Shown here: positions 30,909 to 37,215 of the stretch, in pieces | Numbering within the stretch: the first letter of the stretch is position 1 | How the letters are laid out: the number at the start of each line of letters is the position of its first letter | Origin: Providencia vermicola | Lineage (GTDB): Bacteria; Pseudomonadota; Gammaproteobacteria; Enterobacterales; Enterobacteriaceae | Length of the DNA: 64,000 nucleotides | Direction of reading: 5' to 3' | NCBI RefSeq assembly: GCF_010748935.1 | Contig: NZ_CP048796.1 | Location: 2,359,001 to 2,423,000, forward strand | Position numbers and translations under genes: made by a program | Notes under the pieces: model-generated | Told to the model about the DNA's origin: nothing | The model's input: only the letters and a program-made list of their open reading frames with translations | Database searches by the model: none

Positions 30909-32132
30909 TCAATCAACTAATATACGTTGATTCGTAGCCCCCCACAGGATTGACATTTCAGTAAATAATGCACCACTGATATCTTCAATTTGTTCTGCTG
31001 TGACTTCAGCATTGCCCTGTTTGCCAAAAAAGACGACTTCATTGCCTGGTTTAACTTGCTTTAAATCAGTTACATCAACCATTACTGTATTCATTGATGT
31101 CTTGCCTAAGACAGGTACACGCTGACCACCGATCAAAGCATAACCTGCATTACTAAACACTCGACGATAACCATCTGCATAACCAACCGGTATGTTCGCT
31201 AATACAGAATCACGTTTTAGCGTATGAGTGCGGTCATAACCCACGGTATTCCCTTTAGGATAATGATTTACAGAAGCAATATTTGACTTAAACGTCATCA
31301 CTCTCTTGTATTCGTCAGTAGCAATAGTGTCACCATAAAAAATACCACCTACACGCACCATATCTAGCCATGATTCAGGTACTGTAATGGTTGCAAATGT
31401 ATTCGCAACGTGCAGTGTTACATCTTTACGATCTAATCCTGTCATCTCCAATACCTTCTGAGATTGCTGATTAAAACGCGCTAAATCTTTTTTAATTTGC
31501 AGAGCATCTTCTTCTGGATAATGTGACATGATCCCAACAATTTTTAATTGAGGTAGTTGAGAAATCAGTTTTGCTTCATTTAATCCAGCCGCATTAGCCA
31601 CTTCCAGACCATTACGCGACATTCCACCCGAATTTAGTGCTAAATGAATACGTACTGTCTTTCCTTGTTTTTGAGCAATCGCATTAAGACGTTGGGCCAT
31701 ATCAAGGTTACCAATTAACTCTTCAACATCATATTGCGTTGCTTGCTGCATCTCTTGTTCAGTGGCATTACGTACTCGCATTAATCGACCTTTAAAGCCG
31801 AGATCTCTGACCATTTTTAATTCTTGGTTATTTGTTACACCAATGCACTGAATATTATTTTCGATCATAATAGGTGTAACTAAAGAGAGATCGTGCCCAT
31901 AGGCATCCCCTTTCAGGACCGCACATAACGAAGACTTATCGCCAAGCAAATTTTGTACTTTTTTGATATTAAACTCTAATGCACTACGTGATATTTCTAT
32001 CCATGCATTATTCACTGCGATTGGCTGTACCTGCGCACTTTCTGATGCAACAGCTTTCATGTTAGCTGGCTGCTGACAACCCGCAACGACAAGTAGAGGT
32101 AATAACGCAAGATACCGAAGCTTGAAAGACAT
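30909..32132 (-). CDS. bsr: Broad-specificity amino-acid racemase, lipoprotein form
   Basis: Fold-type-III PLP racemase of the Bsr/alanine racemase group. Bsr enzymes make several D-amino acids in the periplasm, used for cell-wall remodelling and signalling. The 407-residue protein starts with a lipoprotein signal peptide ([13 protein letters not shown], lipobox VAGC). The PLP lysine lies in [12 protein letters not shown], and the catalytic tyrosine region is VGGIFYGDT. The [10 protein letters not shown] and TVGYDRT phrases fit Vibrio BsrV rather than cytoplasmic Alr. The ATG at 32132 follows AAGGG; an upstream in-frame start would spoil the signal peptide. Confidence 0.93.
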
Positions 32133-32199
32133 CAAATTTACCCTTAAGAAAGATTTCAATAACTCTTGAATCATTTGCATGATTAATCAAGACGATAAC

Positions 32200-32252
32200 A
32201 TGTGATAACTATTTGTTTGGTTAAATAATAATTAATACATTATTTATCACAT
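32200..32252. promoter_or_regulatory. Inverted repeat upstream of the racemase gene
   Basis: ATGTGATAA and TTATCACAT arms 35 bp apart, starting 68 bp upstream of the racemase ATG. A similar element is upstream of ddlA (14432-14460). No known regulator assigned. The surrounding 32181-32369 shows no gene. Confidence 0.3.
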
Positions 32253-32369
32253 AAAACATATATATAGAGGTTATTACTATTCGTGACAAATCTTTCTTAG
32301 CGACTCAGAGGATTTACAGTAAATTGGAAGGGAATCAGTCCATGAACTGCATAAATTTGCAATAATTCA

Positions 32370-32410
32370 GCATAAAAAAAGGCACTCGCCCCCGAGTGCC
32401 TTTGGGTACA
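32370..32410 (-). repeat. Copy 1 of a 41-bp direct repeat (ahpF-type terminator)
   Basis: Identical over 41 bp to 35495-35535. On the minus strand it is a strong terminator: stem GGCACTCG/CGAGTGCC then TTTTTTT. It lies 159 nt past the methyltransferase stop and, with copy 2, brackets the restriction-modification region. Confidence 0.9.
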
Positions 32411-32424
32411 GATACTATTCGCGA

Positions 32425-32532
32425 TTATTTGTTAGACATACACCACATACCACCATAACTGATGGGGATCATTCCGCAAGGCTCGGGCAGTCTTGGTGAT
32501 GTTGAAAAGGCCGCAATGGTATTCTGCTTCAT
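32425..32532 (-). CDS. Possible 35-codon small ORF
   Basis: ATG frame starting MKQNTIAAFSTSPRLPEPCG and ending MSNK, between the methyltransferase gene and repeat copy 1. GGTAA lies about 9 nt upstream, a poor ribosome-binding site. No family recognised; may be a remnant of the insertion. Confidence 0.2.
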   Translation of the reverse strand: MKQNTIAAFSTSPRLPEPCGMIPISYGGMWCMSNK

Positions 32533-32568
32533 GAGTTATTACCGCTGATGGAAAGCATGAAGTCAGTT

Positions 32569-33492
32569 TTACATTTTCATCGCTTTTCGCATTTCTTTAG
32601 CTATAGCTTCAATAACTGGGACACAGACACTATTACCAAATTGTTTGTACGCTTGTGCATTAGAAACCGGTATCTCATAGGTATCTGGATATCCCTGCAA
32701 TCTAGCCGCCTCTCTTGGGGTAATTTTGCGAGGATTCTTCCCCTTTTGCTCTATTAATATTTCACTTCCATCTTTATAGTAACGAGCAGAAATTGTATTT
32801 GTATAAGGTGATTCTTCATTAAAAAGACCATAACCAAAGCCTTTACCATTCAATTTATTCTGAATTTTGCGGCGTTGATGACCTTCCCATAACTTATCTG
32901 AAATTGTATATAAATCATCAACATTAGGTTCTAGTATCGAGCCAACTTTTGTTTCTATTCCAATTGGTTCAGGAAATTTAAATTCAACACTCTGATCTAA
33001 AAAACCAACGATAAAAATACGCTCTCTATTTTGAGGAATACCGAAATCTCGGGCTTTAAGAATATCGTGATAAACAACATAACCAGCATCTTTAAGATGG
33101 TCTAATATAACTTGAAGTGTTCTACCTTTATCATGACCACGAAGCTGCTTAACATTTTCAAGTAAAAATGCTTTTGGTTTTCTTTTCAGAAGGATACGCT
33201 CGATATCAAAAAAAAGTGTCCCCCTAGTATCTGAAAATCCTTTCTTCAATCCTGCTTGTGAAAAAGGCTGGCATGGGAATCCTGCGAGTAAAATATCATG
33301 CTCCGGTACATCGAGTTCTGAAATTTCAGTTATATCGCCATGAATATTGTCATCGCCAAAATTAGCTTTATACGTCTGAATAGCAAACTTATCTATTTCA
33401 GAGGTAAAAACACAGTTTACACCACCAAATGCTTGGTCAAATCCTAAACGAATTCCACCTATACCGGCAAAAAGATCAATGACCTTTATCAT
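32569..33492 (-). CDS. C5-cytosine DNA methyltransferase
   Basis: A 307-residue Dcm/HhaI-type methyltransferase that protects the DNA sites cut by the adjacent nuclease. Motif I is DLFAGIGG, motif IV is GFPCQPFSQAG with catalytic Cys74, motif VI is FLLENVKQLRG, motif VIII-like QNRERIFIVGF is present, and motif X is QFGNSVCVPV. The region between VIII and IX is short, so the target-recognition part is small. It begins 7 nt after the nuclease stop. Recognition sequence is not readable; an EcoRII/SsoII-like target (CCNGG or CCWGG) is a reasonable first guess from its partner. Confidence 0.95.
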   Translation of the reverse strand: MIKVIDLFAGIGGIRLGFDQAFGGVNCVFTSEIDKFAIQTYKANFGDDNIHGDITEISELDVPEHDILLAGFPCQPFSQAGLKKGFSDTRGTLFFDIERILLKRKPKAFLLENVKQLRGHDKGRTLQVILDHLKDAGYVVYHDILKARDFGIPQNRERIFIVGFLDQSVEFKFPEPIGIETKVGSILEPNVDDLYTISDKLWEGHQRRKIQNKLNGKGFGYGLFNEESPYTNTISARYYKDGSEILIEQKGKNPRKITPREAARLQGYPDTYEIPVSNAQAYKQFGNSVCVPVIEAIAKEMRKAMKM

Positions 33493-33499
33493 AATGCTA

Positions 33500-34390
33500 C
33501 TAATTCCAAAATTTTAACGTTGCTGGTAACTCATCTAAAAAGTACGTCTCAAAATCAATAATACTTCTTTTGTTTTTCATTGTATCAGAATTCTTGATGT
33601 CATTCCTGACAACCAACACTATGTTATGACGAGCCATTTGCTCTGCTTTTGATGCTGAAATATTGTCATCAACAGTAAGCAAATGAATATTAGGAAGATT
33701 AGATCTTGCCACTTCTTCCACAACTTCTTGCCAACGTTCTCTTAATGTTGTTTTCATTGTTCCAACAATTGTCTTATCTCTACGTTGATTAAAAGCACTT
33801 ATACCCGGTAGAATAGAGTCGACCACTTTACCTAGCCCTAATTCAGTGAAAGCTTTTTTACCTATTGATGCTTGTGATTCAAAAGGATAACCATAGTATT
33901 CATATAGGAAATAAATTATCCCTTCAAATGTTTTCCCTGCGCGAGACCTTCTTGATTGAGTATTACTCAAGCAAAGTTGATAATTATAAGGGCTGATATA
34001 TCCTGAATAATTACCAAACAATTCTGTGATTGTATGTGTTAATGATTCTAGATCGGTGAAATCAGGTAATGATAATTGAGCACACAACTCTTCTAATTTT
34101 GCTTTTGGTGCGGCAAATTTTTCACCTATTTCTTTCAAAATTACCGCATTAAAAGCGGACTCTTCTTTTAAGAACTCGTCATAAGCTAATTCACGCAGTT
34201 GAATAATAGCTTGAGTAACTTGCTTTTGTTTCAATAGGCCTGTAATTAAATCATGGTTAGTTTCTGTTGCTTTTTGCGCTGCAACTTTAGGAGGAGAAAT
34301 CAATTTTCCTCTGGTTGTCTTGATAAAACCAGCAAATCTTTTTTCTTCTATTTCTGATAGTTTTATTAAATTCTGAATACTATTGTCCAT
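33500..34390 (-). CDS. Type II restriction endonuclease, EcoRII-C fold
   Basis: A 296-residue nuclease. The C-terminal half has the EcoRII-C/PspGI/SsoII pattern: QSRRSRAGKTFEGI (residues about 146-158), then Asp191 in VVDSILPG and Lys213 in MKTTLRERWQEV, a PD-(D/E)xK-type site. The N-terminal 130 residues are helical and lack recognisable motifs. The order nuclease-then-methyltransferase on one strand, 7 nt apart, is less usual than the reverse, and no C-protein gene is seen. This raises the question of how the host is protected on entry. The AT-rich upstream region contains an imperfect dyad (34563-34596). Confidence 0.85.
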   Translation of the reverse strand: MDNSIQNLIKLSEIEEKRFAGFIKTTRGKLISPPKVAAQKATETNHDLITGLLKQKQVTQAIIQLRELAYDEFLKEESAFNAVILKEIGEKFAAPKAKLEELCAQLSLPDFTDLESLTHTITELFGNYSGYISPYNYQLCLSNTQSRRSRAGKTFEGIIYFLYEYYGYPFESQASIGKKAFTELGLGKVVDSILPGISAFNQRRDKTIVGTMKTTLRERWQEVVEEVARSNLPNIHLLTVDDNISASKAEQMARHNIVLVVRNDIKNSDTMKNKRSIIDFETYFLDELPATLKFWN

Positions 34391-34934
34391 TAAAACATGC
34401 CTTTAAACATAACATTAGTGTAAGGTCATACATATTAGCCCATATTTACCTTTATAGAAAATTCAGTTTCGCATACATTCCCTTTGGAAACCGGTTATAA
34501 AGCAAGGGTTAAAAACTATATCTTACAAAACAATGAGTTGCACTTTAAGTTTGTAATCTCTTAAACGGTTACACATTAACGCAAAGTAACCCGTTTGTAA
34601 CCTTTTACCATTCCTATCTTTCTGTTTTTTATCAAAAACATACAAGACTATTTTAATTTTTAACCATTATAACCACTTTCCAAATACCTCCCACGAATAC
34701 TCCATTTATATAAAAGACACTCAATAATGCCTGTTTTTTGTTCTAAATTTTATATCTATATTCTTATTATTAACGCTATTTTCCCAAAATCATTCTTGTT
34801 GCTAGTAGGCGGAAAATACAATCATCCTGATGAGGTATACAGAGGTATGCGATTTGGGCGGTGTAAGAGACCCCTGAGACATGAATATGAAAGAGGAAAA
34901 AGAAAAATTGCACATTGGCGACCTATGGAAAAAA
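34391..34934. other. AT-rich region upstream of the restriction genes
   Basis: No convincing gene. An imperfect inverted repeat AAACGGTTAC/GTAACCCGTTT lies at 34563-34596, about 170 bp upstream of the nuclease start, with a further AACCGGTT palindrome near 34489-34496. These are candidate control sites for the restriction genes. A 73-codon plus-strand frame at 34727-34948 has no ribosome-binding site and is probably chance. Confidence 0.4.
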
Positions 34935-35290
34935 TTAACAGAAACTAACTCTCGCTGTTTTCCAGTCCCAACATCTAAGCACATCAGACTTCGTTAAAGT
35001 ACTCCTTACCACAAGCATACTATTAAACTGGCTGTTCACCATACTTCGCACCGTCTTAACGCTTATAAACTTACGCATGCACGCCGCTTTCAATAAATTC
35101 TTAAATTGGTATTTAATAGTATCGATTGGCTGTACTCGCAGGTCACCGGTTCAATATGGTTAAAATTCACCGCATAAACGCCCTTTTCACTACTGTGATT
35201 CACACCAAAGATCTCATTATCATATAAATAATCAAACAGTTTCCAAAACTCTATCACTTCCGGTTGGCCAAGTTGAATCGGTCTAAGCAT
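34935..35290 (-). pseudogene. Frameshifted small gene inside the R-M region
   Basis: The minus-strand frame from 35290 reads MLRPIQLGQPEVIEFWKLFD and continues to NTNLRIY, then stops at 35090. Shifting frame at about 35100 gives an open continuation, KNLLKAACMRKFISVKTVRS and on to SDVLRCWDWK, stopping at 34935. Both halves look coding (helix-rich, ordinary codons), so this appears to be one protein of about 118 residues broken by a single-base change. I do not recognise the family with certainty; it reads like a short accessory protein of integrated elements. Its decay suggests the cassette is an old insertion. Confidence 0.5.
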
Positions 35291-35494
35291 ATTGTTTGTG
35301 CCATCTCAATAATAAAATCATGCTTTGGTGAATATAAACTGTTTTACCAACAAGAACTAACAACAACTGCGCTTATACTCTCATTGGATGAATTTCTCCG
35401 CTGTAAGTACCACCAAATCAGCGTTTAGATCGTCCATAAGTTGTCCACACTTGAACACTTTTCGGCAGTATTGAAACCTTTATATGCAAATTAC

Positions 35495-35535
35495 GCATAA
35501 AAAAAGGCACTCGCCCCCGAGTGCCTTTGGGTACA
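35495..35535 (-). terminator. ahpF terminator; copy 2 of the 41-bp direct repeat
   Basis: Stem GGCACTCG/CGAGTGCC with a short G-rich loop, then TTTTTTT on the minus strand, 20 nt past the ahpF stop. Identical over 41 bp to 32370-32410. Confidence 0.9.
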
Positions 35536-35555
35536 ACCTACTGAATTGGTATGAT

Positions 35556-37136
35556 TTACACCTCTTCAGCGGTTCTGGTACTTGTGCGGATGAGGTAATC
35601 AAAGGCGCTAAGTGCGGCTTTCGCTCCCTCACCGGCTGAAATAATAATCTGCTTGTATGGCACAGTTGTACAGTCACCTGCTGCAAAAATACCTTTAATA
35701 TTGGTTTCGCCACGCGCATTCACTTCAATTTCACCCATGCGGTTGCGTGCAACGGTATCCCCTAACCAATTGGTATTGGGTAATAAACCAATTTGAACAA
35801 ATGCACCTGCAACTTCTAATAAATGAACGCTATCATTCGTCCGATCTTTATACTCAAGACCTGTCATTTTACTACCATCACCCTTAACTTCTAATGTCTG
35901 GGCATTAAGGATAATATCGACATTTTTCAGGCTGCGTACTTTATCTTGTAATACTGAGTCTGCTTTCAGTTCAGGCGCAAATTCTAATACGGTCACATGT
36001 TCAACAAGACCGGCCAAATCAATAGCTGCTTCTATACCTGAGTTACCACCACCAATCACAGCAACACGTTTGCCTTTAAATAGTGGGCCATCGCAATGTG
36101 GGCAGAAAGTCACGCCTTTCGTGCGATATTCTTGTTCACCCGGTACCCCCATATTGCGCCAGCGAGCGCCTGTCGCAATAATGATGCTGCGTGACTTCAT
36201 CACGCCACCCGATGCTGTTTCAATTTGGTGTAAGCCACCTTCTTCCGCTGCTGGAATTAATTTGGTCACAGACTGACCATCAATAACATCGACACTATAG
36301 TCATCAACGTGGTTTTTCAGTGCTCCCGCGAATATCGCACCTTCTGTTTTAATCACAGAAATATAGTTTTCGATATCAACCGTATCCATCACTTGACCAC
36401 CGAAGCGCTCACCGATCACACCAGTGCGAATACCTTTACGTGCGGTATAAATCGCAGCCGATGCACCAGCAGGACCACTACCAATAACCAATACATCAAA
36501 TGGTTCGCGCTCAGTTAATGCTTTAGCTGCACGTGCATCTGCATTACTGTCAACTTTATTCACTATCTCACTTAATGTCATACGGCCTTGACCAAATTCT
36601 TTCCCATTCAGGAAAACAGCCGGCACGCCCATCACATTGCGTTGTTCTATTTCATTTTGGAACAAAGCACCGTCAATGGCGGTATGAGTGACATTTGGGT
36701 TCAAAACTGCCATCAAGTTCAACGCTTGCACAACATCTGGGCAATTATGGCAAGATAATGAGTAATACGTCTCAAAGTGGAATTCCCCTTCAAGGGCTTT
36801 CACTTGATCTAATAATTCCTGTGCTTCTTTAGACGGGTGACCGCCAATTTGTAATAACGCAAGCACTAATGATGTAAATTCATGGCCCAATGGTGAACCA
36901 GCAAAACGCAACCCACTATCGACCCCTGGATTCGTAATTAAAAATGAGGGTATTCTTTGGCTAGCATCTTGGGTTTCACGAACAGTGATTTTGTCAGAAA
37001 GTGCAGCAATTTGATGTAACAGCTCTTTTATTTCGTTTGATTTATTGCCGCTATCTAAATTTGCAACTAACTCAACAGGTTTGGTTAATCTTTCTAAATA
37101 AGCCTTCAATTGCGCTTGCATATTGTTATCGAGCAT
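35556..37136 (-). CDS. ahpF: Alkyl hydroperoxide reductase subunit F
   Basis: Flavoprotein disulfide reductase that passes electrons from NADH to AhpC. It has 526 residues. The N-terminal tandem thioredoxin-like domain has its CxxC at Cys129/Cys132 (CHNC). The FAD motif [17 protein letters not shown], the active-site pair CPHC, and the NAD motif [10 protein letters not shown] follow in order. The ATG at 37136 ([14 protein letters not shown]) matches E. coli and follows AAGGGGAT. It lies 79 bp downstream of ahpC, the standard order, and is probably OxyR-controlled. Confidence 0.97.
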
Positions 37137-37215
37137 ATGATCCCCTTGGTCATAAAATCGGGTGCATAGCACCCGATAACATCAGTCTATTTTTGCTTTC
37201 GAGATAAAATTCGAA

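Follow-up and report, generated by a model that had tools for sequence, protein, structure and literature searches.

A probable remnant of a P2-like prophage at the 3' end of ahpF in Providencia vermicola retains an intact restriction-modification pair

INTRODUCTION

P2-like phages carry variable cargo, much of which serves defence, in a cos-proximal hotspot between gpA and gpQ, as set out by Rousset et al. (2022; PMC9122126). Here, we analysed a stretch of 64,000 nucleotides from Providencia vermicola (NCBI RefSeq assembly GCF_010748935.1, contig NZ_CP048796.1, positions 2,359,001 to 2,423,000; hereafter the window), in which the interval between the host genes ahpF and bsr contains a type II restriction-modification (R-M) pair, made of a restriction endonuclease (R) and a DNA methyltransferase (M), bracketed by two copies of the ahpF terminator. 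This interval is almost certainly a decayed P2-like (Peduoviridae-type) prophage that inserted at the end of ahpF and carried the R-M pair. As in the P2 hotspot, the slot between the primase and portal genes holds cargo: an R-M pair in the window and in a prophage of Providencia sp. UBA10704 (a metagenome-assembled genome, hereafter G018), an Eco47II-type R-M system in genome G012 and other genes elsewhere. In contrast to the phages with the P2 hotspot, those of the Providencia type have a Toprim primase (phrog_1139) and integrate at ahpF, and of the copy in the window, reduced by deletions, the cargo alone is intact.

The integrase of the Providencia prophages resembles that of bacteriophage P2, its best named relative in the phage collection, with 56.8% identity over 99% of the length. 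Compared with the P2 system, the attachment site (att) of the Providencia prophages consists of the ahpF 3' end and terminator, and the phage seems to carry the end of its target gene. R is related to the R.Ecl18kI/EcoRII-C family (PDB 2fqz, 2gb7, 3hqg, 3bm3 and 1na6). The process is of a known kind and is seen here unusually clearly; a limited literature search, which is not proof of absence, found no description of ahpF as a phage integration site.

RESULTS

The interval between ahpF and bsr keeps phage segments in prophage order

The window from 35481 to 32420 is covered by alignments to six P2-like prophages of the genus (cargo included in the database and gaps of up to 20 nt bridged). Moreover, the phage order is kept, with the left end followed by the primase C-terminus, R, M, the portal fragment and the distal repeat (Table 1). 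Identity to the G018 prophage is 85.5% over the ahpF end and phage left end (35386-35700), 76.1% over the primase C-terminus (34898-35347), 82.9% over the post-primase stretch (34489-34736), 94.1% over the R-M pair (32568-34474) and 82.7% over the portal fragment (32420-32568). By tblastn, the decayed gene corresponds to primase residues 778-884, in two pieces of 65-69% amino acid identity, and the portal fragment is likewise found in two pieces, at 80-85%.

The window thus has the order of replication gene, accessory genes and portal gene, as well as direct att repeats at both ends, of 41 bp. It lacks a P2-family integrase next to att, and of the virion gene set only a 150-bp portal fragment is left, for which reason we speak of a remnant and not of a prophage. 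Searches with the prophage integrase (E values up to 1e-60 and up to 1e-8) found no relative within the interval, in agreement with the original prediction, made from this DNA alone, that no integrase is visible; its loss by deletion is probable. The two deletion junctions explain why the integrase is not seen and why the repeat measures only 41 bp. A megablast of the interval against plasmids, addressing a plasmid origin, gave no match.

Table 1. Features of the ahpF-bsr region, from ahpF to bsr (window coordinates)
Feature	Coordinates	Strand	Basis
ahpF, host gene; its 3' end is the attachment target	35556..37172	-	Open reading frame; orthologue in 24/24 same-genus genomes including its own
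Proximal attachment region (equivalent of last ahpF codons, stop, spacer, terminator)	35495..35620	-	-92 repeat boundary in 7/9 two-copy genomes
Phage left end, non-coding, between att and int 3' end	35386..35494	.	88.0-92.6% identity to 6/6 int-bearing prophages
Deletion junction 1, left end joined to primase C-terminal part	35362..35386	.	Alignments to G018 and G012 on either side
Decayed primase C-terminus, frameshifted	34898..35361	-	80.0-82.8% nucleotide identity to 6/6 prophages
Post-primase intergenic stretch of the prophage	34489..34736	.	82.9% nucleotide identity to G018; 34489-34701, 77.3-84.5% to 6 prophages
R, type II restriction endonuclease, EcoRII-C/Ecl18kI-like, 296 aa, intact frame	33500..34390	-	Pfam PF09019, E 4.5e-17
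M, C5-cytosine DNA methyltransferase, 307 aa, intact frame	32569..33492	-	Pfam PF00145, E 2.8e-109
Phage portal gene fragment (P2 gpQ equivalent), residues ~268-320	32420..32568	+	83.2-88.6% nucleotide identity to 6/6 prophages
Deletion junction 2, portal gene fused to att copy	32410-32420		Alignments
Distal attachment copy, trimmed to 41 bp	32370..32410	-	~165 bp past the methyltransferase stop codon; terminator scan and alignments
bsr (name from the original prediction), host gene beyond the distal copy	30909..32180	-	Open reading frame; orthologue adjoins ahpF without insert in G001

The bracketing repeats are two copies of the ahpF terminator

A pairwise comparison showed that 32370-32410 and 35495-35535 are identical over 41 bp; when extended to 47 bp, the identity is 96%. 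In the 4.43-Mb genome to which the window belongs, the 30-nt terminator core has exactly two matches (up to 3 mismatches allowed), both of them these copies, and a dispersed repeat family is thereby ruled out. The two copies are also the sole terminator-like sites found by a simple scan of the minus strand of 32100-35700, where both strands together gave four sites versus 2.2 expected, and their folding energies are -19.3 and -19.7 kcal/mol (z of about -3). A promoter scan returned 10 promoter-like sites versus 12.8 expected, which is uninformative. In the proximal region the hairpin lies at 35503-35528, and only 35495-35535 is still repeated. Because the distal copy lies shortly past the methyltransferase stop codon on the same strand, the duplicated ahpF terminator could terminate the R-M transcript. 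The original prediction had described the identical 41-bp copies with the terminator hairpin, and had placed a nuclease gene, a methyltransferase gene and a decayed gene between them; the comparison and the genome scan bear out the former, and the Pfam matches the latter, the decayed gene being the phage primase C-terminus. The dispersed family named there as one of two cases that would speak against insertion was not found.

P2-like prophages occupy the ahpF end in other Providencia genomes

Our survey covered 24 genomes of the genus, including that of the window (G000). Six of them (G018, G009, G012, G023, G007 and G003) carry a P2-like prophage of 33.7-38.7 kb at the ahpF end. We call these int-bearing, meaning that integrase (int), primase, portal and terminase genes lie between two att copies, with no claim of an active phage. 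In all six, a tyrosine integrase 91-100% identical to that of G018 stands beside the ahpF terminator, the primase, portal and terminase genes lie beyond it, and a second terminator copy is present at the far end. The G018 prophage has matches in PHROGs for integrase, regulators, primase, portal, large and small terminase, scaffold, capsid, baseplate, sheath and tail, ten virion or late proteins being matched. Relatives of the primase were found in 21 phage records, all below 60%, among them that of the Peduoviridae phage Smp131. A truncated integrase is present at ahpF in G010, and the primase match of G009 is in two pieces.

The terminator core was found in 22 of the 24 genomes; the version of G006 is one base shorter and the hairpin of G019 has diverged. 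Two copies of the core are present in nine genomes, namely G000 (3.1 kb apart), those with the six prophages, G015 (5.8 kb, one mismatch) and G002 (3.2 kb), and G006 has two copies of its own version 2.66 kb apart. By blastn to the six prophages, phage-like DNA lies at ahpF in 15 of the 24 genomes, that is the six int-bearing ones and nine (G000, G015, G021, G013, G010, G011, G004, G006 and G005) of the other 18, for which the ~6-14 kb downstream of ahpF were compared; since the database included cargo, the matches in G021 may be to phage genes or to shared cargo. The compared stretches of G002, G001, G019, G020, G017, G016, G008, G014 and G022 gave no phage-like DNA. Seven of these nine (G001, G020, G017, G016, G008, G014 and G022) have a single terminator, whereas G019 has no copy by the core pattern. 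In G001, 457 bp separate the ahpF match from that of bsr; the match to the next host gene follows ahpF after 96 bp in G020 and 202 bp in G016.

Apart from these, G009 (L037, L038, L072; C3:1178738-1220970) has two elements in tandem at this site, its P2-like prophage and an older remnant. This second remnant does not share junction 1 with the window, and bsr was not found in the G009 stretch examined.

The att repeat includes the 3' end of ahpF

We aligned the repeats from both ends in the nine two-copy genomes, leaving out the tenth, G006. With positions counted from the hairpin, the repeat starts at -92 in seven of them (G018, G007, G023, G003, G012, G009 and G015), at -82 in G002 and at -7 in the window, and its aligned length in the six int-bearing prophages is 126-198 nt. 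As counted on the sequences, the part from -92 comprises the last 18 ahpF codons, the stop codon, a spacer, the hairpin and the T tract. In the seven -92 genomes the distal copy is preceded by the same bases, TTTAGAAC, which are absent on the ahpF side; this common sequence and the repeated ahpF codons suggest that the phage carries the ahpF 3' end and appears to put it back when it enters. The two spacers of G009, one beside ahpF and one in the distal copy, differ in type, consistent with a crossover before the stop codon. The AhpF C-terminus in the window reads RTAEEV (35556-35575), a slightly longer end than in the five relatives with listed open reading frames, where it is RTAE (four) or RTAA (one).

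The accessory slot holds different cargo in different prophages

The R-M pair of the window is present in the G018 prophage, between the primase and portal genes, together with a 623-aa protein without Pfam match. The same slot holds a DUF2971 protein and others in G007, a similar protein, as judged by eye, in G023, the Eco47II-type R-M system with TIR and KAP-NTPase proteins in G012, and, in the second remnant of G009, a different C5-methyltransferase and two transposase genes (IS110-type and rve-type), the remnant also having a portal gene. Near its distal end, the G018 prophage has further cargo (L062:5601-7829), AriA-like (E 8.1e-24) and AriB-like (E 8.6e-11) as in PARIS.

R and M are intact and conserved

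R and M are adjacent, intact endonuclease and methyltransferase genes, as in type II R-M systems, and the only long intact open reading frames between the repeats. Their products are 96.6% (R) and 97.7% (M) identical to those of G018. Between the window and G018, dN/dS is ~0.04 for both genes; NG86 gave dN 0.014 and dS 0.34 for R, and dN 0.010 and dS 0.24 for M, and two other methods gave dS 0.23-0.31 for R and 0.22-0.25 for M. Third positions account for 50 of the 62 differences in R and 42 of the 48 in M (92/110 together). These values indicate that R and M are under purifying selection, part of that history possibly in phages.

Only residues 134-290 of R align with the R.Ecl18kI family: a 157-residue match to R.Ecl18kI (E 9.4e-31) includes the KTTLRERWQEV motif, the matches to EcoRII and PspGI are weaker, and the first 133 residues had no match in that endonuclease search. 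By counting on the alignment, D191, K213 and E226 of R stand opposite Ecl18kI residues 160, 182 and 195, and R217-E218-R219 opposite 186-188, which we take to be the catalytic and CCGG-contacting residues. Since all of them are kept, R, presumably an active enzyme, is predicted to recognize a site built around CCGG or CC-N-GG.

Among the 24 genomes the R gene is present in two, that of the window included. In the GTDB genome collection, relatives of R occur at seven loci, with M adjacent in all seven (R ends at the contig end in L036 and is in two pieces in L035). A tblastn search of 50,697 phage records (E up to 1e-5) gave no match to R, so that its link to phages rests on G018 and three IMG/VR contigs with an R relative. 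In two of these, from other P2-like phages, R and then M lie just ahead of the portal gene: L082 has both at full length between a 688-aa open reading frame and the portal gene. In L084 (6886-7886) the two genes, at the same place, are both truncated and run together, apparently by one internal deletion.

DISCUSSION

A temperate phage would have entered at ahpF and left its cargo

In the history that we consider most probable, a temperate phage with a P2-type tyrosine integrase would have entered by recombination between its attP and the chromosomal end of ahpF. This attP presumably contained the ahpF terminator preceded by the stop codon and the last 18 codons of the gene, matching the chromosomal target. 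In such an event ahpF would have stayed whole, and the repeated segment would have been duplicated at both ends of the prophage. The type II R-M pair would have come in with this phage, as cargo of the accessory slot that separates primase from portal. One later deletion probably removed int, the regulator and the DNA through most of the primase gene; another probably began inside the portal gene and ended inside the distal repeat, of which it left 41 bp. With its own genes, the remnant can neither excise nor form particles any longer. R and M persist, maintained by purifying selection, most likely for host defence, perhaps aided by R-M addiction.

Several findings weigh against this history or limit it. 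Segments of the window are 77.3-92.6% identical to the six prophages, whose identities among themselves have medians of 89.5-97.9% and a minimum of 82.9%; the phage of the window was therefore related to them, not the same. The R-M pair is closer to G018 (94.1%) than the flanks are (76.1-85.5%), so a separate exchange of R-M genes among phages is possible. The distal copy of the window is without the ahpF 3' end found in the seven distal copies of the -92 type, and trimming must therefore be assumed. Moreover, the double repeat of G002 surrounds a 3.2-kb insert without DNA match to the P2-like prophages. At the six R loci outside the genus, the 8-17 kb examined gave no match to P2-type int, primase, portal or terminase; thus, the pair is not bound to phages everywhere. 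Finally, the R relative of the P2-like IMG/VR contig L083 (10001-10891) stands among tail genes, outside the slot. In L083 a 57% methyltransferase relative lies ~9 kb from R, beside the portal gene.

Other explanations

One alternative concerns only why the R-M genes stayed, and is compatible with a decayed prophage. Type II R-M pairs show addiction behaviour, and retention could be due to post-segregational killing: cells that lose M would be cut by leftover R, and the R-M end of the husk would then be hard to delete. That R and M are the only long intact frames between the repeats, both under purifying selection, agrees with such killing, yet plain selection for defence explains the same pattern and nothing separates the two; we regard killing as the less likely one.

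It is improbable that the R-M pair was a later arrival, brought into an already decayed prophage when a second P2-like phage with R-M genes recombined at this site. The excess identity of the pair over its flanks and the tandem arrangement of G009, where a prophage sits beside an older remnant, could be read in this way. However, the dS between the window and G018 (0.23-0.34 for R and 0.22-0.25 for M over the three methods) matches the divergence of the flanks in size, which is what common descent would give under selection on the proteins, and the order is collinear with G018.

The original prediction had a 3.1-kb cassette enter at the ahpF terminator and duplicate it, by recombination in the hairpin or by an att-like reaction. 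The bracketed prophages and the insert-free relatives bear out that an att-like reaction led to the insertion at the ahpF end, and the comparison proposed there, a search for an empty site with a single copy, found such sites, for example in G001. What entered was instead a P2-like prophage of ~36 kb, and the real repeat is at least 126 nt and includes the ahpF 3' end. Homologous recombination of a small R-M cassette through the terminator hairpin, duplicating the terminator without any phage, would suit an exact repeat confined to the terminator segment, an interval without integrase and the non-phage cargo inside the G002 repeats. It is nevertheless very hard to uphold, as the primase C-terminus, the post-primase stretch and the portal fragment flank the R-M pair in prophage order and the phage left end adjoins the proximal copy. 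For the window, the phage fragments found to either side of the R-M pair rule out recombination in the hairpin alone. The prediction had named a pair of terminators lacking these R-M genes as a refuting case, and eight genomes do have it; in seven the copies support the att reading, since they bracket the prophages of G007, G023, G003, G012 and G009 and the phage-like stretches of G015 and G006, whereas G002 shows that they may also enclose other cargo. The G002 insert (L056:2230-5460) consists of GmrSD-type and HEPN genes between ahpF-end repeats identical at 110 of 116 positions.

A P4-like satellite or another integrative element as the source is equally far-fetched: although P4 satellites too have R-M genes in a cos-proximal hotspot, they are described as having no capsid and tail genes (PMC9122126), whereas the window keeps a piece of the portal gene, a virion gene, and its int-bearing relatives hold virion genes.

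Lysogeny at ahpF may have rewritten the gene end across species

The segment of 42 nt from the last ahpF codons to the hairpin (window 35529-35568) was compared in 23 genomes, G019 being left out because no anchor was found. It is identical in nine of them (G007, G023, G012, G009, G015, G001, G011, G004 and G006), G010 and G005 have one difference and the other 12 have more. Over their ahpF bodies these nine share only 79.9-97.6% identity (median 84.9%), and eight of them have phage-like DNA at the site, G001 having none. As a control, only one other version of the segment is common to several genomes: the six that have it are close relatives (ahpF bodies 88.8-97.5% identical) and show no phage-like DNA, the pattern expected from vertical inheritance. 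Among all pairs whose ahpF bodies share 80-87% identity, 28 of 164 agree over the whole segment, and the median segment identity is 78.6%. This second control favours, tentatively and at slightly less than an even chance, the view that phages lysogenizing at ahpF time and again have rewritten its 3' end and terminator in different species, leaving cargo behind. Replacement of the gene end by phage-borne copies would explain the identical segments, also in G001, where there is no phage-like DNA. Chromosomal recombination or shared constraint within the nine-genome group is another possible explanation.

The ahpF locus thus shows, at one site and in one genus, relatives with int, sites free of prophage and prophages decayed to several degrees, and the window provides a worked example of how the defence cargo of a temperate phage may become a chromosomal R-M system. 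When a terminator occurs twice with no integrase nearby, it can be the sign of a decayed prophage, which may help to find other remnants. If lysogeny has indeed rewritten the gene end in this way, the end of ahpF, an oxidative-stress gene, would be a one-way gate, at which phages enter, lose their mobility and leave defence genes insulated by the two copies of the ahpF terminator.

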